The notes below the pieces were generated by a model. The model had not been told where the DNA came from. It saw only the letters and a list, made by a program, of their open reading frames with translations, and made no database searches. A stretch of DNA of 33,477 bases from a virus, in the IMG/VR virus record IMGVR_UViG_3300045999_001619, positions 1-33,477 of that record; one strand, written 5' to 3'. This document shows positions 4,392-33,477 of this stretch, piece by piece (position 1 is the first letter of the stretch; every line of letters starts with the position of its first letter). The position numbers were made by a program, and so were the translations under genes.

Positions 4392-4401
4392 TATTATACT
4401 G

Positions 4402-4409
4402 CAAATATA
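4402..4409 (-). promoter_or_regulatory. Candidate -7 element for the initiator transcript
   Basis: TATATTTG on the minus strand matches TAnnTTTG perfectly, just downstream of the DnaA-like gene's stop. No good -33 TTTG lies at the usual 19-22 base distance, so this is a partial promoter match. If used, both leader hairpins fall within the 5' untranslated region of the initiator mRNA. Confidence 0.35.
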
Positions 4410-4411
4410 CA

Positions 4412-4840
4412 CTAAATTTCTTTAAGTTCTAATTTTAAACAAAGTTTTTTTAGCTTCGTTTTAAACCAGTCCTCAGTTTCTATTAGGTTGTTCGCTTGTT
4501 TTATGTTATGGATAGCAGTCGTATGGTCGCTTGTTCCTGTGTACTGGCTTATCTCCTTAAGGCTTAACTTGGTATACCTTCTGAGTAAGTAAGCAGCAGC
4601 CTTTCGACCGAACGTTGTTTTTAAACTTCTATCCTTAATTAATACATCGCACTCAAACTCCTCGTCTACCAATTTAACAATAGTCCTTGCGCCAATGTCT
4701 AACCCTAAAGGCTCGTTATCTTCTATGCCTAACAACCCTAACTGCTGCATCATTTCGTGAAGTTGCAAATGGGTGTTGCGTTGTGCAAAGTATAACTCCT
4801 TTAACTGTCTAATTGATATATCTCTTTTTCTCGTTAGCAT
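4412..4840 (-). CDS. Free-standing DnaA domain IV (DnaA-box-binding) protein
   Basis: A 142-residue protein whose C-terminal half matches the DNA-binding domain IV of bacterial DnaA. KTTFGRKAAAYLLRRYTKLS corresponds to the basic loop and helix, SLKEISQYTGTSDHTTAIH contains the DnaA signature (normally GxRDHTTVLHA), and it ends with a terminal helix. No ATPase (AAA+) domain is present; the first 60 residues form a different helical segment (RQLKELYFAQRNTHLQLHEM). It is therefore probably an origin-binding or competitor protein and not a full initiator. It lies directly upstream of the iteron-carrying initiator gene, three bases after the small SSB-tail protein gene. It might recruit host replication to the phage origin or block host oriC. 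Confidence 0.85.
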   Translation of the reverse strand: MLTRKRDISIRQLKELYFAQRNTHLQLHEMMQQLGLLGIEDNEPLGLDIGARTIVKLVDEEFECDVLIKDRSLKTTFGRKAAAYLLRRYTKLSLKEISQYTGTSDHTTAIHNIKQANNLIETEDWFKTKLKKLCLKLELKEI

Positions 4841-4842
4841 AA

Positions 4843-5037
4843 TTAAAACGGCAATCCTTCCGTATCTTCTTTTGGTTTGAAATCGTTTACATAAATCTTG
4901 TAATCTGGTTGCTTATCCTCTGTCTTGTAAGCGTTTACCCACATTGAATACTTAACATCATTAATTGTAAAATTAATTACTTCTCCTTTAGCGGTGGTCT
5001 TTTTCCACGCGCCTGTACTCCATTTTTTTTGTTCCAT
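4843..5037 (-). CDS. Small protein with SSB-like C-terminal tail (64 aa)
   Basis: A 64-residue protein with an alternating hydrophobic beta pattern (EVINFTINDVKYSMWVNAY, then PDYKIYVND) and an end EDTEGLPF. The acidic stretch plus terminal L-P-F resembles the C-terminal tip of bacterial SSB (D-D-x-P-F), which recruits many repair and replication proteins. The KQPDYKIYV segment recalls small DUF736-like proteins. A role as mini ssDNA-binding protein or as a competitor for SSB partners fits its place between the ERF annealing protein and the DnaA-like protein, but it is inferred. It is too short for a typical SSB (about 110 residues or more). Confidence 0.7.
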   Translation of the reverse strand: MEQKKWSTGAWKKTTAKGEVINFTINDVKYSMWVNAYKTEDKQPDYKIYVNDFKPKEDTEGLPF

Positions 5038-5039
5038 TT

Positions 5040-5249
5040 TTATTTGTTTTTAATTGAATATTGAGCTACTAATTTACTTTGTTTTTTCGTACCAACATTA
5101 ATTAATTCCGTTCGTACTTTATAGCCTTTGCGTTTTAATTCAAATACTACGGCTGCTAATCTCAGGCTATTGTACTTCGTTAATGCCTGAATTGGTGTCA
5201 AGGTTTTGCCCGAAAGCAAGTGGTTCAAGATTTGTTGTTGTTGTGTCAT
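5040..5249 (-). CDS. Small helix-turn-helix protein (69 aa)
   Basis: A 69-residue protein with a winged-helix look: QQQILNHLLSGKTLTPIQALTKY, SLRLAAVVFELKRKGYKVRTE, then a short strand (SKLVAQYSI). This pattern is common for short phage HTH proteins encoded in replication regions; they are presumed to bind DNA, with unknown targets. The gene overlaps the end of the preceding one by 83 bases in a different frame and ends two bases before the SSB-tail gene. It could be the early regulator, as no other repressor-like protein is seen. Confidence 0.75.
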   Translation of the reverse strand: MTQQQQILNHLLSGKTLTPIQALTKYNSLRLAAVVFELKRKGYKVRTELINVGTKKQSKLVAQYSIKNK

Positions 5250-5406
5250 TGTTATTGATTTGGGTTAAGAATACTGGTTTGTCTAAAATTGTTTGGTACT
5301 TATCTATAAACGCTAAAAGGTCTGCATAAGCTTCTTCGTTATACCAAGCATAATGGTACACTTCAGCTAACAATATTTGCCTTTCAAATGGTAGCAACTC
5401 TTTCAT
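5167..5406 (-). CDS. Hypothetical early protein (79 aa)
   Basis: A 79-residue acidic protein starting MKELLPFERQILLAEVYHYAWYNEE-like, directly at the stop of the ERF gene (TAATG overlap), which supports translation. The second half is N/T-rich and overlaps the HTH gene by 83 bases. I recognise no family. Its place between annealing protein and HTH protein suggests a role in early DNA metabolism or host takeover, but nothing in the sequence shows it. Confidence 0.6.
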   Translation of the reverse strand: MKELLPFERQILLAEVYHYAWYNEEAYADLLAFIDKYQTILDKPVFLTQINNNDTTTTNLEPLAFGQNLDTNSGINEVQ

Positions 5407-5939
5407 TAGCTTTTCTTTATTGTTTCTTTAATCTTGTTAAATTCGTCTAAACTCTTAATGGCATTGATTTTCATAGCAGCCTTTACCTTTTGGTCTTCAG
5501 TAAACTTTGTCTTATCTAACTGTTCAATTAAGAATGCTTTTTGCCCTTCGCTTACTTCGTCTTTATGCTCATTAGTAGCATCTGCATCTTTAGTATCGTC
5601 TATGGCAAACAGTCCGTTAAGCGCATATTTACGAGCATAGCTACTTGCTGCACCCGTAATCTGTGAAGCGTCCATTCCTTTTTTGTTTTCTTCTTCCCGT
5701 GCTAACCCAGTACAAGTTATGTTATCCTCTCCGTTACTTAAACAAGCAGTAGCCTTTACATAAACTCGACCGCCTACTTCTATTACTTCGTCGCTTAACA
5801 TTAAAGCATAGCCGTACTTATGGCAGATAGGTTTTGCAGCTTCTATAATATCTTCTGCACTTCGGTACTTGTATTTAGCAAAAGCATTGAATTGGTTTTT
5901 AGGTGCTTTTAATTCCTGTTGAATTTTTATTAGGCTCAT
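5406..5939 (-). CDS. erf: ERF-family single-strand annealing protein
   Basis: A 177-residue ERF superfamily recombinase. It has FNAFAKYKYRSAEDIIEAAKP near the start, HKYGYALMLSDEV, and the family's core SQITGAASSYARKYALNGLF (about residues 115-135), followed by a D/K-rich linker and a helical tail. ERF proteins anneal complementary single strands and act in phage recombination, end repair and genome circularisation. Neighbours are a small SSB-tailed protein and replication proteins, the usual setting. Length is at the short end of the family (about 180-250). The symbol is given by family, not by proven orthology to P22 Erf. Confidence 0.88.
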   Translation of the reverse strand: MSLIKIQQELKAPKNQFNAFAKYKYRSAEDIIEAAKPICHKYGYALMLSDEVIEVGGRVYVKATACLSNGEDNITCTGLAREEENKKGMDASQITGAASSYARKYALNGLFAIDDTKDADATNEHKDEVSEGQKAFLIEQLDKTKFTEDQKVKAAMKINAIKSLDEFNKIKETIKKS

Positions 5940-5941
5940 TG

Positions 5942-6139
5942 TTATTGGTTTTGGGTATCTATTGAATAGTGTTCTAAAATTTCGATAATAGGTTCTTGCC
6001 TTTTCTTTAGGCTTACAAAGTACTCGTATGCCTGAGAGTATTCCATATACATACTTGCACTATCGTATTTGTTATCTACTAAAGTGTAGTAGAATATTGT
6101 GCCGTCTGGCTTAGTTTCTTTTATAAATTCAATCTTCAT
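5942..6139 (-). CDS. Hypothetical early protein (65 aa)
   Basis: A 65-residue protein (starts MKIEFIKETKPDGTIFYY) with a beta-like beginning and a helical tyrosine-rich centre (SMYMEYSQAYEYFVSLKK). It overlaps the end of the preceding gene by 11 bases and ends two bases before the ERF start, so it belongs to the same transcript. No family recognised. Confidence 0.65.
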   Translation of the reverse strand: MKIEFIKETKPDGTIFYYTLVDNKYDSASMYMEYSQAYEYFVSLKKRQEPIIEILEHYSIDTQNQ

Positions 6140-6335
6140 ATAATTCGTTTTTTAAAAGTTCAAGTTCTGCATTGTTTTCAACCCAACGAGTAAACGTGTA
6201 ATCATCATCTTCGTAATCGTAGTTTTTAGGCAATAGAGCAGGGTCATAGGGGTTTGTAATACTCCTGTTCCCGTCGATTAATATGTTCCCGTATCGCTGA
6301 TATTGGAACAATTGGTAGGTGGTTAAGTGTGTCAT
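6129..6335 (-). CDS. Hypothetical early protein (68 aa), first gene of the early operon
   Basis: A 68-residue acidic protein, rich in Y, N and D (NYDYEDDDYTFTRWVENNAE). It is the first gene after the promoter at 6353-6387 and overlaps the next by 11 bases. Small acidic first-expressed phage proteins are often host-takeover or anti-restriction factors, but there is no motif to support a specific role. Confidence 0.65.
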   Translation of the reverse strand: MTHLTTYQLFQYQRYGNILIDGNRSITNPYDPALLPKNYDYEDDDYTFTRWVENNAELELLKNELYED

Positions 6336-6352
6336 TTTGTGTTTTGTTTACA

Positions 6353-6387
6353 CAAATATACAACAATGCACAATACAAAGTGCAAAA
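6353..6387 (-). promoter_or_regulatory. Main early promoter
   Basis: On the minus strand TTTTG (6387-6383) is followed after 22 bases by TATATTTG (6360-6353), a perfect Bacteroidetes -7 element (TAnnTTTG). The first gene of the replication block starts at 6335, about 18 bases downstream. The same TTTG-N22-TAnnTTTG layout occurs at 27953-27986 and 2955-2988. Confidence 0.7.
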
Positions 6388-6413
6388 CTATTAAAATATT
6401 TTAAAATTATTTT

Positions 6414-18024: not shown

Positions 18025-18978
18025 TTATGCTAGAACGAATGCAGCAACTTCATCAGGGAATGCAATATTTACACCCATTTTGAACTCACTTACAAAACGT
18101 ACTTGGTCAGCTTCTTTAGCGTAGAAAATTTCAAACTTCTCTTCTTCGTTAAGTAAATCTGTACCTAAGAACAAGTTAGATAAACGCATAGCGTAAACCT
18201 TGTTTGTTCCGTTAAGACCTGCAACTGCTACAACTTTGATTGTAGTACCAGGAAGTACGAATTCGCTATCAGCCTTAACATCAATTTGGTAATTGAAAGA
18301 ACCGCTATTCTTAAGAGCGATAGTGTAAGTACGGAATAAATCTTGACCACAGAAGATAGTCATATCATCAGCAGCTACAACTTTTGCAGGGATTGCACGA
18401 TAAACACCATCAAAGATAGAGATTACGTTTGCAGCAGTGATTGAAGATAGAGGCGCACCTGAAATAAAAGTAGAAGCGTTTGCAGCAACAACACCTGAAG
18501 CAGCACCGATTAACTTAACAAGACCATCGAACTTGTTTAAGTTTACGTTTACACTTGAAGTGTCGCCTTGCCATAAACCAGTTTCTAATTGTGCAGCGAT
18601 TGTCTTAGCTTTCTTTTCAGAATATTCTTGCTCAAAAGGTACGCTATCGTACATTGAACCTGTAGGTAAAGCTTTTTGTAAATACTTAGCTTCAAGGTCT
18701 TTAGGACATAAAGCTTCGTTTACTTTAATTTTACCAGGAGTTACAGTTCTTTGAGTGAAGGTAGTAGAACCAGAAGCATTAAAGCCACAAGAAGCACCAT
18801 CTTGGAAGATAGCGTCTGTTTCCATAATGTTGATTTTTTCGCTTGACTTCACGCCAACCATAACGTTACCTGCGCTCTTAATAAGAGAAGCAGTTTTTGC
18901 ACCCAATACAGATGAAGTTACAAGTAGAGCTTCGTTTTCTTTTGTATAGTTTGCTAATGCAGATACATCAAATCCCAT
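18025..18978 (-). CDS. Major capsid protein
   Basis: A 317-residue protein starting MGFDVSALANYTKENEALL, with GCQ-free but conserved segments ASCGFNASGSTTFTQRTVTP, NEALCPKDLEAKYLQ and EYSEKKAKTIAAQLE. It continues with IFDGVYRAIPAKVVAADDMT and an end KMGVNIAFPDEVAAFVLA. This is the common capsid protein type of Bacteroidetes siphoviruses, presumably with the HK97 fold, although the fold cannot be read directly from the sequence. It follows scaffold and protease genes and is followed by a strong terminator, the expected context. Length is normal (about 310-350). Confidence 0.85.
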   Translation of the reverse strand: MGFDVSALANYTKENEALLVTSSVLGAKTASLIKSAGNVMVGVKSSEKINIMETDAIFQDGASCGFNASGSTTFTQRTVTPGKIKVNEALCPKDLEAKYLQKALPTGSMYDSVPFEQEYSEKKAKTIAAQLETGLWQGDTSSVNVNLNKFDGLVKLIGAASGVVAANASTFISGAPLSSITAANVISIFDGVYRAIPAKVVAADDMTIFCGQDLFRTYTIALKNSGSFNYQIDVKADSEFVLPGTTIKVVAVAGLNGTNKVYAMRLSNLFLGTDLLNEEEKFEIFYAKEADQVRFVSEFKMGVNIAFPDEVAAFVLA

Positions 18979-30224: not shown

Positions 30225-30983
30225 TTAAAATAAACTTGGCTTGTTTATGTTATTCCAATTTATCTTAACGTCTACCCTACCAGTATCCTTGATTATTTTT
30301 TGACATATATTTTCACCCCATACTTCAACCATACGTTCTGCGCATTTACTTTCTTTGCCAATGTCATAAAATATTTCCTTTAACCCACCTGCGTTACTTC
30401 CGTTTGGTGGTGCACTAAAAGCATATAGGGTTGTTCTGGCAGTTTTTAAATTTTTGCTTATTACTTGTATTGCAAAATCACGGTCTTCTTTGCCTTCTAC
30501 ATAAACATTGTACCTTAACCCATTAGTTAAAATATTATTTACATAAACGCAGCTATCGCAAAAACTATTATTTACTAAAGGTTTACTTGCAGACCAAGCA
30601 AATTGCCTATATTCTAATGCGCCAAGTGCGATGTTGTTTTGTTCAAATTGTAGTTTAGCATCAAGTAAATTACTGTAACCGCTTTTAATTAATTTGGTAT
30701 CTTCTCTATGGTATATACCTGTTATGTCGTCATCAAGTTGCCAATAGTATTGTAAGCCATTTTGTTCGGTATATTGTTTAATAAAATTCCTTACATAAGT
30801 AATGCCTTTGTTATTTTCTGGAAGAGCAATGATATTATGTTCCTGGAATTTATTTTTATATGCTCCGTAATCTTGTGGCTCTACTACAATGTTTAATTTA
30901 AATTGACCTGCATTTAATATTGTTGAACAATTATTTATGCGGTTTTTACTTGGTACAAAAATATTATAATCTAAAAAATCCAT
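30225..30983 (-). CDS. TET/JBP-associated DNA-base glycosyltransferase (TAGT)
   Basis: A 252-residue GT-A-fold glycosyltransferase. Motifs (numbering from the ATG at 30983): NIFVPSKNR (7-15), VVEPQDYGAYK (33-43), LPENNKGITYVRN (54-66) and WQLDDDI (81-87), the last supplying the metal-binding D-x-D. This combination is that of the TAGT family, predicted to glycosylate hydroxymethylated bases in DNA made by TET/JBP dioxygenases. The dioxygenase gene lies directly upstream with a 20-base overlap, which strongly supports the pairing. A longer frame to 31016 begins with GTG; I prefer the ATG after an A-rich leader. Expected product is a sugar-modified 5-hydroxymethyl pyrimidine. Sugar and base are not known. 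Confidence 0.82.
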   Translation of the reverse strand: MDFLDYNIFVPSKNRINNCSTILNAGQFKLNIVVEPQDYGAYKNKFQEHNIIALPENNKGITYVRNFIKQYTEQNGLQYYWQLDDDITGIYHREDTKLIKSGYSNLLDAKLQFEQNNIALGALEYRQFAWSASKPLVNNSFCDSCVYVNNILTNGLRYNVYVEGKEDRDFAIQVISKNLKTARTTLYAFSAPPNGSNAGGLKEIFYDIGKESKCAERMVEVWGENICQKIIKDTGRVDVKINWNNINKPSLF

Positions 30984-31836
30984 TTTTTTCTTGTTTAATT
31001 GTTTGTAATTGTTCACTTGGTTTTTTGCAGCTTAACATCATTTCTCTGTAATACATTACAAAAGTTATTCTTTTGCAAGTTTGTTCGTCAAAATTAATGA
31101 ATGGGCTGTTGCAATGCCACCTATGAACATCAACAAAAAGGACATCTGTATTTTGCAGGTCTATTCCTATACCAAATTCAGGTAAGATAAAATATGCGCC
31201 AGTCCAGTTGCCTTCTCTATAAGCAATTAAATTACCAAAACCTTTTTCAAGGTCACCACTATCTTTATGTAATGCAGTTCTAAAATTTTTATTAACTGTT
31301 ATTGTACTAAAGGAAGTGTCTTCAATAACATAATTTTTGCTTGTACCTTCTGCAAATTCTTTTTGTATAGCATAGTGCTTTGGGCAAAGTTCAGAATATA
31401 GCTTATCAATATGTTTTACAAAAGGTATTCCGTTATTAAATTTATCAAAGTGCTTCCTACCAAATGCAGTCATTCTACAATAAGGAACCATAGCATTGCT
31501 ATCCATATAACCTACGTTGCCGCTTAATACCTTATTGCCAACTGTTATTTTACTTATGCTACCGTCTTTCCTAATACGTTTATGGCTGCCACCACTGGTA
31601 ATGCCACGGCTTTCGGTTAGTTCGATACTGTATTCAAAATTATCAACACCTTGCTTTAGTACTTCTAATGGCAATACATTTTTGCGAAACCTAAACAAAA
31701 GATTGCCGTTCATATCATAACCATCTGAATCGTGGTCTATGATTGGGTGCTTAATATATGTTTCATCTAAAAAGCTCCCTTTTAATGATTCACCCTGTTC
31801 GTCTGACATTATACGTTTTAGCTTATAAGTTTCCAT
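30964..31836 (-). CDS. TET/JBP-like 2-oxoglutarate/Fe(II) dioxygenase for DNA bases
   Basis: A 290-residue protein whose C-terminal half has the double-stranded beta-helix of TET/JBP dioxygenases: VNKNFRTALHKDSGDLEKG with H190-x-D192 as iron ligands, GNLIAYREGNWTGAYFILPE, then IGIDLQNTDVLFVDVHRWHC with the distal iron histidine (H238 or H241), and KRITFVMYYR with R256 likely binding 2-oxoglutarate. It is predicted to hydroxylate the 5-methyl group of thymine or 5-methylcytosine in DNA. The N-terminal 120 residues hold G/S/R-rich segments (SRGITSGGSHKRI), perhaps for DNA contact. It is next to the TAGT glycosyltransferase. No DNA methyltransferase is in the genome, leaving thymine or host-made 5mC as substrate. 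Confidence 0.82.
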   Translation of the reverse strand: METYKLKRIMSDEQGESLKGSFLDETYIKHPIIDHDSDGYDMNGNLLFRFRKNVLPLEVLKQGVDNFEYSIELTESRGITSGGSHKRIRKDGSISKITVGNKVLSGNVGYMDSNAMVPYCRMTAFGRKHFDKFNNGIPFVKHIDKLYSELCPKHYAIQKEFAEGTSKNYVIEDTSFSTITVNKNFRTALHKDSGDLEKGFGNLIAYREGNWTGAYFILPEFGIGIDLQNTDVLFVDVHRWHCNSPFINFDEQTCKRITFVMYYREMMLSCKKPSEQLQTIKQEKNGFFRL

Positions 31837-32047
31837 ATTCTTTTTTTAATAGGTGTAAAATAAGGTCTGTAATATTACCTTTTTCTTGGAAACTTTCGCC
31901 AAAATGTTGCTTAATGCCAGTTTTACATAATAACTTAAATTGTTTTAATTCTTGTTCGCTCATATACAGTATTGTGGTTGTAATATGAACGTCTTCAAGT
32001 TCATCGTTGTTTATCGGTATTTTATTACCGAATAGGTCTTGTTGCAT
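31823..32047 (-). CDS. Hypothetical protein heading the base-modification operon (74 aa)
   Basis: A 74-residue protein starting MQQDLFGNKIPINNDELEDV, then a helical half (SEQELKQFKLLCKTGIKQHF and NITDLILHLLKKEYGNL). Its end overlaps the dioxygenase start by 14 bases and it follows a clear promoter at 32068-32098. It may be an accessory factor of the modification enzymes, but no motif shows this. Confidence 0.6.
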   Translation of the reverse strand: MQQDLFGNKIPINNDELEDVHITTTILYMSEQELKQFKLLCKTGIKQHFGESFQEKGNITDLILHLLKKEYGNL

Positions 32048-32067
32048 TGTGTTTAGTTTAGTTAATA

Positions 32068-32098
32068 CAAATTTATAAATAATTTTTAATTAACCAAA
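32068..32098 (-). promoter_or_regulatory. Promoter of the base-modification operon
   Basis: Minus-strand TTTG (32098-32095), 19 bases, TAAATTTG (32075-32068), full match to the Bacteroidetes consensus. The first start is at 32047. Confidence 0.6.
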
Positions 32099-32522: not shown

Positions 32523-32945
32523 TTATTTTGTGTCTATTTCTTTTATTTTGTTAATTGCCCATTCAACTCCACTTGTACCTCCCCAAGCATCCCACATTAA
32601 ACCGCCACAACCTTCGCTATAAGGTACGTCTTTATGTTGTTGATGTCTTTTAAACGAAGCCATACGGGCGATCGTATCTCGACTAATCGGCTCACGATTT
32701 GCTAATTGCCTTGCTCTTGCTTTGCCAGTTGCTTCTCCGCACGAACCCCAACCATTTTTTTCAGCCCATTCTATTGCCCTCTTTGCGTTGTTAGTAGCTG
32801 ACTCAGGATAGTCGGTATAAGATTCAGCAAATTTACCACCTGCAAGGATAGCTTTCCATACTTGCATAGCTTTTTCCTCGGTATCGTAAACACAACCGCC
32901 TGAGCCTATTCTATATTTCCCATTTGAGCATTTTATTACTGGCAT
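32523..32945 (-). CDS. Conserved phage protein with two small domains (140 aa)
   Basis: A 140-residue protein. The N-terminus (VIKCSNGKYRIGSGGCVYD, then A-x-x-A at about 25-33) matches a small domain (I-x-C-x-N-G-K-W-R-I-G-x-G-x-C) often attached to phage head proteins. The rest (ESATNNAKRAIEWAEKNGWG, SRDTIARMASFKRHQQHKDV, YSEGCGGLMWDAWGGTSGVE) is a highly conserved domain that I recall from phage prohead and portal region proteins, of unknown function. In this genome it is a separate gene beside the glycosyltransferases. It overlaps the glycosyltransferase by 10 bases. Confidence 0.7.
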   Translation of the reverse strand: MPVIKCSNGKYRIGSGGCVYDTEEKAMQVWKAILAGGKFAESYTDYPESATNNAKRAIEWAEKNGWGSCGEATGKARARQLANREPISRDTIARMASFKRHQQHKDVPYSEGCGGLMWDAWGGTSGVEWAINKIKEIDTK

Positions 32946-33477
32946 AGTTTACTATAAATATACTTTCGGTCTAAATTTATCTCGTCAAAGTTATACTTCT
33001 TTTGGCAGAACTCAAACAACTTCTGTCCGCTTTCCTTACGCAAATCCGCATCACTTACTAAATCTCTTATATGTTTATACCAATCCTTTTGGCTTTTAAC
33101 ATAATGCACGGGCATATCAAGGTAAGGATTAACATAGCTAACTATGGCAGGGTTCTTTTTAGCAGCCGTTTCTAATACCTTTAAATTGGACTTCATAGCG
33201 TTGAACTTGTTATCTACAAGTGGGATAACTGAAATGTCTGAGTCCGTGTAAGCACCCATATATTCCGTAACCTTTGCATAGTTGTAAATTGTAGGGTTAA
33301 GCTTTAGTCCGCAAGTAAAGGCATCAATCATTTTATCCCATATAGGTTTCTCCCCGTCATTGTAACCTGCTATTACAGTTCTTATATTCATACCTTGTAG
33401 CCTTTTAAACGGCTGCCTAAGTATTTCTAAATCTCGTTCGTGCGTTCCGCTACCTGACCAAAACAATCTGACCTTGT
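32936..33477 (-). CDS. Glycosyltransferase, GT4/GT1-like, C-terminal part (same gene as 1-582)
   Basis: This is the 3' part of the glycosyltransferase gene that starts at 582. Within this copy the frame is open to the right edge; an internal TTG near 33466 is not the real start, since the preceding codons (YKVR) are in frame in the left-end copy. The segment RLFWSGSGTHERDLE is the usual start of the C-terminal GT-B domain, followed by VIAGYNDGEKPIWDK and by SVIPLVDNKFNAMKSNLK, which matches the nucleotide-sugar-binding region (P-L-x-D-N-x-F-N-x-x-K-S) of GT4 enzymes. The end overlaps the next gene (start 32945) by 10 bases. Length of the full product is 331 residues, normal for this type. Confidence 0.8.
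   Translation of the reverse strand, partial: KVRLFWSGSGTHERDLEILRQPFKRLQGMNIRTVIAGYNDGEKPIWDKMIDAFTCGLKLNPTIYNYAKVTEYMGAYTDSDISVIPLVDNKFNAMKSNLKVLETAAKKNPAIVSYVNPYLDMPVHYVKSQKDWYKHIRDLVSDADLRKESGQKLFEFCQKKYNFDEINLDRKYIYSKLCQ
33352..33477. repeat. Terminal direct repeat, right copy (assembly overlap)
   Basis: Exact copy of bases 3-128. Collapsing the two copies gives a circle of 33,349 bp and an intact glycosyltransferase reading frame (582 to 3, then 33351 to 32936; 996 nt, 331 codons plus stop). Confidence 0.9.

Follow-up and report, generated by a model that had tools for sequence, protein, structure and literature searches.

Three overlapping genes on the minus strand of a complete phage genome most likely make up one DNA-base hypermodification operon of a known enzyme type. 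They encode, in this order, a 74-aa protein, a TET/JBP dioxygenase and a TAGT glycosyltransferase. The reading that we put forward, tentatively, is that together they produce a sparse glycosyl-hydroxymethylpyrimidine from 5-methylcytosine (5mC) made by the host. The window, i.e. the whole stretch of DNA that was analysed, comprises positions 1 to 33,477 of IMG/VR record IMGVR_UViG_3300045999_001619, and the operon consists of the following features:

31823..32047, minus strand: 74-aa gene, first gene of the operon, encoding the TET partner; fold unassigned, no Pfam or PDB match
30964..31836, minus strand: TET/JBP 2-oxoglutarate/Fe(II) dioxygenase, 290 aa (Pfam PF12851, 4.7e-22)
30225..30983, minus strand: TAGT glycosyltransferase, 252 aa (Pfam PF20691, 2.9e-23)

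The gene ends overlap, by 14 bp between the 74-aa gene and TET and by 20 bp between TET and TAGT, and both enzyme genes lie where the original prediction had put them. Its view of the genome as complete also holds: an exact 126-bp terminal repeat closes the window into a circle of 33,349 bp, over whose junction a GT4 gene (331 aa) runs unbroken. The promoter that had been assigned to the unit was not recovered, in that a scan for sigma-70-like sites, a class that leaves Bacteroidota-type promoters outside, found none just upstream of 32047 (minus strand) and only 8 matches in the region, fewer than chance (12.7 in shuffles). The GT4 gene (32936-33477, wrapping to the start) is part of a small glycan gene set, together with a GT2 glycosyltransferase (564-1247) and a hexapeptide sugar acyltransferase (1247-1726). 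This set is possibly devoted to a host-surface or virion glycan; in principle its enzymes might also modify the sugar on the DNA.

The assignment of the two enzymes to a base-hypermodification unit was upheld by the profile (HMM) search that had been proposed for them. Both proteins score far over the curated cut-offs, with 78.4 bits for the dioxygenase against PF12851 (cut-off 34.9) and 83.3 bits for the glycosyltransferase against PF20691 (cut-off 27.5). The enzyme families point to DNA as the target and to a two-step chemistry. The dioxygenase motifs described earlier are intact: the Fe(II) triad and the 2OG arginine (H190-x-D192, H241, R256) are invariant among 61 aligned sequences. An AlphaFold model built with these 61 sequences (pLDDT 89) shows the TET-type double-stranded beta-helix fold over its whole length in VIA-align, with Z-scores of 20.6 to TET2 (rmsd 4.0, 259 residues aligned), 19.4 to CMD1 and 18.2 to NgTET1. 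These three and CcTet are the nearest solved folds, and AlkB/FTO-type enzymes reach Z 14.3 or below. Tet_JBP is the only Pfam domain in the 290 aa, with no second domain beside it; neither the J-DNA-binding domain of JBP1 nor the SNF2 domain of JBP2 was found in the protein.

An HMM alignment of the window TET to TET2 equates T180 with T1372, D195 with N1387, Y262 with Y1902 and R264 with H1904. The equivalents of D195, Asp234 in NgTET1 and Asp350 in CMD1, form a bond with the amino group at N4 of 5mC; R264 corresponds to Arg418 of CMD1 (PMC7854593, PMC11040006). The combination found in 5mC enzymes, an Asp/Asn at the N4 contact, an aromatic stack and a His/Arg, is present as D195, Y262 and R264. 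Judged by its residues, the base pocket (Asp195, Tyr262, Arg264, Thr180) appears to be like that of 5mC enzymes and leans towards 5mC, in a comparison that holds no JBP sequence or structure and is not decisive; a JBP catalytic domain is not among the solved structures matched by the TET. D195 is kept in 60/61 sequences, in carriers and non-carriers of a C5-methyltransferase alike. A split of pocket specificity along the presence of that enzyme was considered and rejected, since the pocket is identical in the two groups and the carriers are scattered on the tree.

The TAGT motifs read from the sequence were confirmed as well. A DXD-type metal motif is present as DDD at residues 84-86, within a WQLDDDITG stretch conserved in the cultured Nonlabens (Persicivirga) phage P12024L, and the protein matches PHROG 842 (1.3e-35). 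The ATG at 30983 was chosen as start over the GTG at 31016 on the basis of the start of the P12024L homologue. In that phage the genes gp25-gp26-gp27 (NC_018272.1) have the same order as in the window, the small gene again overlaps TET, and the identities to the window proteins are 48% for the small gene, 60% for TET and 65% for TAGT.

Scans of viral contigs yielded 143 TET relatives, of which 80 were kept, and 255 TAGT relatives, of which again 80 were kept. A scan of bacterial genomes for TET returned zero relatives; a broad eight-sequence TET alignment proved too divergent as a scan query. The 74-aa protein is an obligate TET partner. Its gene lies immediately upstream of TET in 90/90 members of the window TET clade, mostly with an 8-23 bp overlap, and directly upstream in 90/98 of all TET genes with upstream sequence, the remaining eight being one second paralogue (in L008) and seven TETs of other clades. 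Conversely, 77/77 loci seeded with the small protein alone hold a TET, a count that is not independent of the 90/90, as many of the small-protein contigs overlap the TET set. The suggestion that the 74-residue gene encodes an accessory factor is supported by this linkage, and we infer that the protein is a DNA-targeting or activating subunit. It shows 44% identity to its counterpart in L008. In the AlphaFold monomer it forms two helices (residues 31-56 and 59-71), and searches of Pfam, PDB sequences and PDB folds gave no match. A ribbon-helix-helix identity, suggested by eye, received no support from profile, sequence and fold searches. The L008 locus itself (4398-6394) holds a tandem pair of TET paralogues, with the small partner at the first only and a P-loop kinase following.

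In phages, TET enzymes are generally seen as oxidising 5mC supplied by a phage methyltransferase. Most members of the present clade, the cultured isolate included, carry no such enzyme; they have a constant, unstudied small partner, and yet their restriction sites are still purged. In the window no C5-methyltransferase (PF00145), no N6/N4 methyltransferase (PF01555) and no thymidylate-synthase-type hydroxymethylase (PF00303) was recognised, in searches that were positive on 10 controls for the first, on positive controls for the second and on 9 controls for the third. This agrees with the earlier statement that the genome has neither a methyltransferase nor a deoxypyrimidine hydroxymethylase. 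C5-methyltransferases are sporadic among the relatives: they occur in 6/49 records of a first survey (2/17 among records of at least 28 kb) and in 2/38 of a second, and additionally in the fragments L020 and L063. Many of the surveyed records are fragments; P12024L, HTVC112P and Cr30 are complete, and these three genomes, like the window, are without a C5-methyltransferase. Since the carriers are few and scattered over the TET tree and complete genomes do without the enzyme, the clade is independent of a phage-encoded C5-methyltransferase. In some close relatives (L020, L082) the enzyme is encoded near TET, which is compatible with a 5mC substrate. N6/N4 methyltransferases occur in P12024L and in a few relatives; in P12024L the trio is followed by one (PF01555, 3.4e-13), which the window lacks.

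The neighbourhoods in the relatives have a constant start, consisting of the small gene and TET, often followed by a gene of ~152 aa and then by an exchangeable last slot. This slot is occupied by TAGT, by a P-loop kinase, by ADDT (amino-acid:DNA transferase) or by ADDT together with a P-loop kinase. The window TET clusters with the set of L065, L072 and L083 (tree support 98/93; 59% identity to L072), but the window TAGT is only weakly like the TAGTs of that set (26% over 109 aa) and shares 65% identity with that of L012, from which it follows that TET and its tailoring enzyme have been re-paired. In 56 relatives (L045 1871-2329 and 55 others) the ~152-aa gene, absent from the window, separates TET from the tailoring gene. 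Its product resembles a PD-(D/E)XK nuclease by eye (E-x-K, EIKNDQ motif), has no Pfam match and matches PHROG 13596 weakly. The fullest cassette seen is that of L020 (1172-5505), with TET, ADDT, a P-loop kinase, a SAM-methyltransferase-like protein and a C5-methyltransferase in succession.

In the mechanism that we propose, TET, aided by the 74-aa partner, would flip a 5-methylpyrimidine out of the phage DNA and hydroxylate its methyl group, after which TAGT would add a sugar directly onto the hydroxymethyl group. The substrate would be 5mC laid down by host methyltransferases, and the product sparse glycosyl-hydroxymethylcytosine, not a wholesale replacement. As there is no phage methyltransferase to supply 5mC, the yield would hang on the host. 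A sensible purpose would be to hide methyl marks placed by the host from nucleases that depend on modification (Type IV); the sparse marks could also serve packaging or regulation. DNA with m5C or hm5C is restricted by Type IV enzymes, and it was through restriction of phage DNA with non-glucosylated hmC that the rgl/Mcr systems came to light (PMC3874153). Some Type IV enzymes, however, attack glucosylated hmC, which counts against masking (PMC3874153).

The original prediction had left two substrates side by side, a sugar on hydroxymethyluracil or feeding on host 5mC. Both are kept here, with a lean towards 5mC that stems from the base-contact residues, compared without JBP. In the thymine version, a phage analogue of base J, TET with its obligate small partner would oxidise thymine in DNA directly and TAGT would glycosylate the resulting hydroxymethyluracil at a minority of sites, with no methyltransferase involved. 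We regard this as the main rival, possible though rather unlikely. It requires no enzyme that supplies methyl groups, in agreement with the complete genomes that have no C5-methyltransferase and with the low survey counts given above. Moreover, the TETs of the clade also sit beside P-loop kinases and ADDT, which counts against the 5mC reading, and the kinases recall the phages with hydroxymethyluracil, in which a DNA kinase phosphorylates 5hmU ahead of further tailoring (PMC6449724). Nevertheless, the Asp at the N4 contact accepts a bond from the N4 of cytosine but would be repelled by the O4 of thymine unless protonated, and the purging of the T-containing sites CATG, CTAG and GATC makes modification of most T unlikely.

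The loss of restriction sites is near-total for several palindromes. Relative to an order-2 Markov expectation, the window contains 0/76 CATG, 0/39 GGCC, 1/101 CTAG and 1/56 GATC (observed/expected), and CCGG (4/30) and CGCG (6/32) are strongly depleted, whereas TTAA, ATAT, GCGC, AGCT, GTAC and TGCA are close to their expected counts. The sole CTAG lies at 18030 and the sole GATC at 32670. All six purged tetranucleotides contain C and three also contain T. Such a loss is a sign of heavy restriction pressure on the window phage. Similar avoidance is found in most of the large TET+TAGT relatives, although in P12024L only the GC-only palindromes are strongly avoided, whereas the window purges CATG, CTAG and GATC as well. 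Where TAGT fills the slot (55 loci), CATG/CTAG/GATC reach 0.33 of the expected count and GGCC/CGCG/CCGG 0.47; for 29 related-terminase loci without a nearby TET, an outside control only since a TET could sit elsewhere in those genomes, the values are 0.46 and 0.27.

These counts bear on the idea that wholesale glycosylated bases serve the genome as armour against Type II enzymes, in the manner of the T-even phages. The enzymes of the window are intact, and the T6 beta-glucosyl-HMC-alpha-glucosyltransferase, which belongs to the same TAGT family (PF20691), puts a second sugar on already glucosylated hydroxymethylcytosine (PMC13216743). We nonetheless consider such armour unlikely. In a published survey, the share of host sites that is avoided was 2.4% for coliphages possessing a cytosine hydroxymethylase and 55.8% for relatives that lack the enzyme (PMC6286503). 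The window and most TET+TAGT phages have purged theirs, with no clear relief of avoidance relative to the TET-free relatives. As the sites are purged in both alike, the TET-TAGT unit does not seem to act as genome-wide Type II armour, and the predicted protection against restriction enzymes is not borne out. Recent acquisition of the operon might account for the avoidance in a single phage, but hardly over a diverged clade. The hydroxymethylase gene is absent too, and without it or a recognised first glucosyltransferase, the window TAGT would have the hydroxymethyl base itself as its acceptor. With respect to that first enzyme, the PF11440 and PF09198 profiles (primary alpha-/beta-glucosyltransferase) had no match in the window, yet matched no control either; such an enzyme is also absent among the strongest Pfam matches of all window proteins. 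The marks are thus probably sparse, or limited to contexts outside the purged sites.

Phage TETs are known for a GpC preference. Modification of GpC throughout the genome is disfavoured, GGCC and CGCG, which contain GpC, being depleted. Almost no palindrome avoidance, except of TCGA, is seen in the lineage of L068, L075, L077, L078 and L080, which has TET with ADDT and a P-loop kinase and in this differs from most relatives with TAGT, where more sites are avoided. This lineage is a candidate for real genome armour; as the signal comes mostly from one lineage, we draw no conclusion from it.

A target other than the pyrimidines of phage DNA, such as RNA, 6mA or a surface glycan, seems quite improbable. 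CcTet does oxidise 6mA besides 5mC, but it has a Gly at the position of Asp195 in the window, where a side chain blocks 6mA (PMC11040006). The N6/N4 methyltransferases of P12024L and a few relatives would fit a 6mA target; the window has none, and a surface glycan is disfavoured by the scores of both proteins in the TET/JBP and TAGT families. Very improbable, finally, is a methyltransferase in the genome that feeds TET but is too divergent for recognition: many small window genes are without a family and the short C5-methyltransferases of some relatives (287-288 aa) match PF00145 only in two pieces, but the search caught those divergent copies while finding no PF00145 or PF01555 match in the window, and most other large relatives lack the enzyme too.

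Pairs of TET/JBP and TAGT in phages are already known. Systems in which one phage operon combines TET/JBP with TAGT were reportedly predicted by Iyer et al. (2013, NAR); the findings on the obligate 74-aa partner and on restriction sites, as well as the census of the last slot, come from the present data. The phage TET clusters of Burke et al. (2021, PNAS), which likewise join a TET/JBP dioxygenase to enzymes that tailor a 5-methylpyrimidine in DNA, are said to include a C5-methyltransferase, whereas the window and most of its TET clade are without one. Beside these two studies, the obligate partner, the methyltransferase independence, the re-pairing of modules and the persistent avoidance appear to be new. 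The kinetoplastid base J pathway (JBP1/JBP2 and JGT) also couples a dioxygenase to glycosyl transfer on a 5-methylpyrimidine and needs no methyltransferase; the window differs in its single-domain 290-aa TET with a pocket resembling that of 5mC enzymes and in using a TAGT as the glycosyltransferase. The Pelagibacter phage HTVC112P has a TET that is 36% identical to that of the window, likewise without a C5-methyltransferase, in a ParB-TET-FkbM cluster. In its TET clade a ParB protein occupies the place of the small gene, and an FkbM methyltransferase stands in place of TAGT. Several further loci (within L108-L157) contain ParB-TAGT-TAGT clusters with no TET of the window's clade nearby, which suggests a separate TAGT system with ParB.
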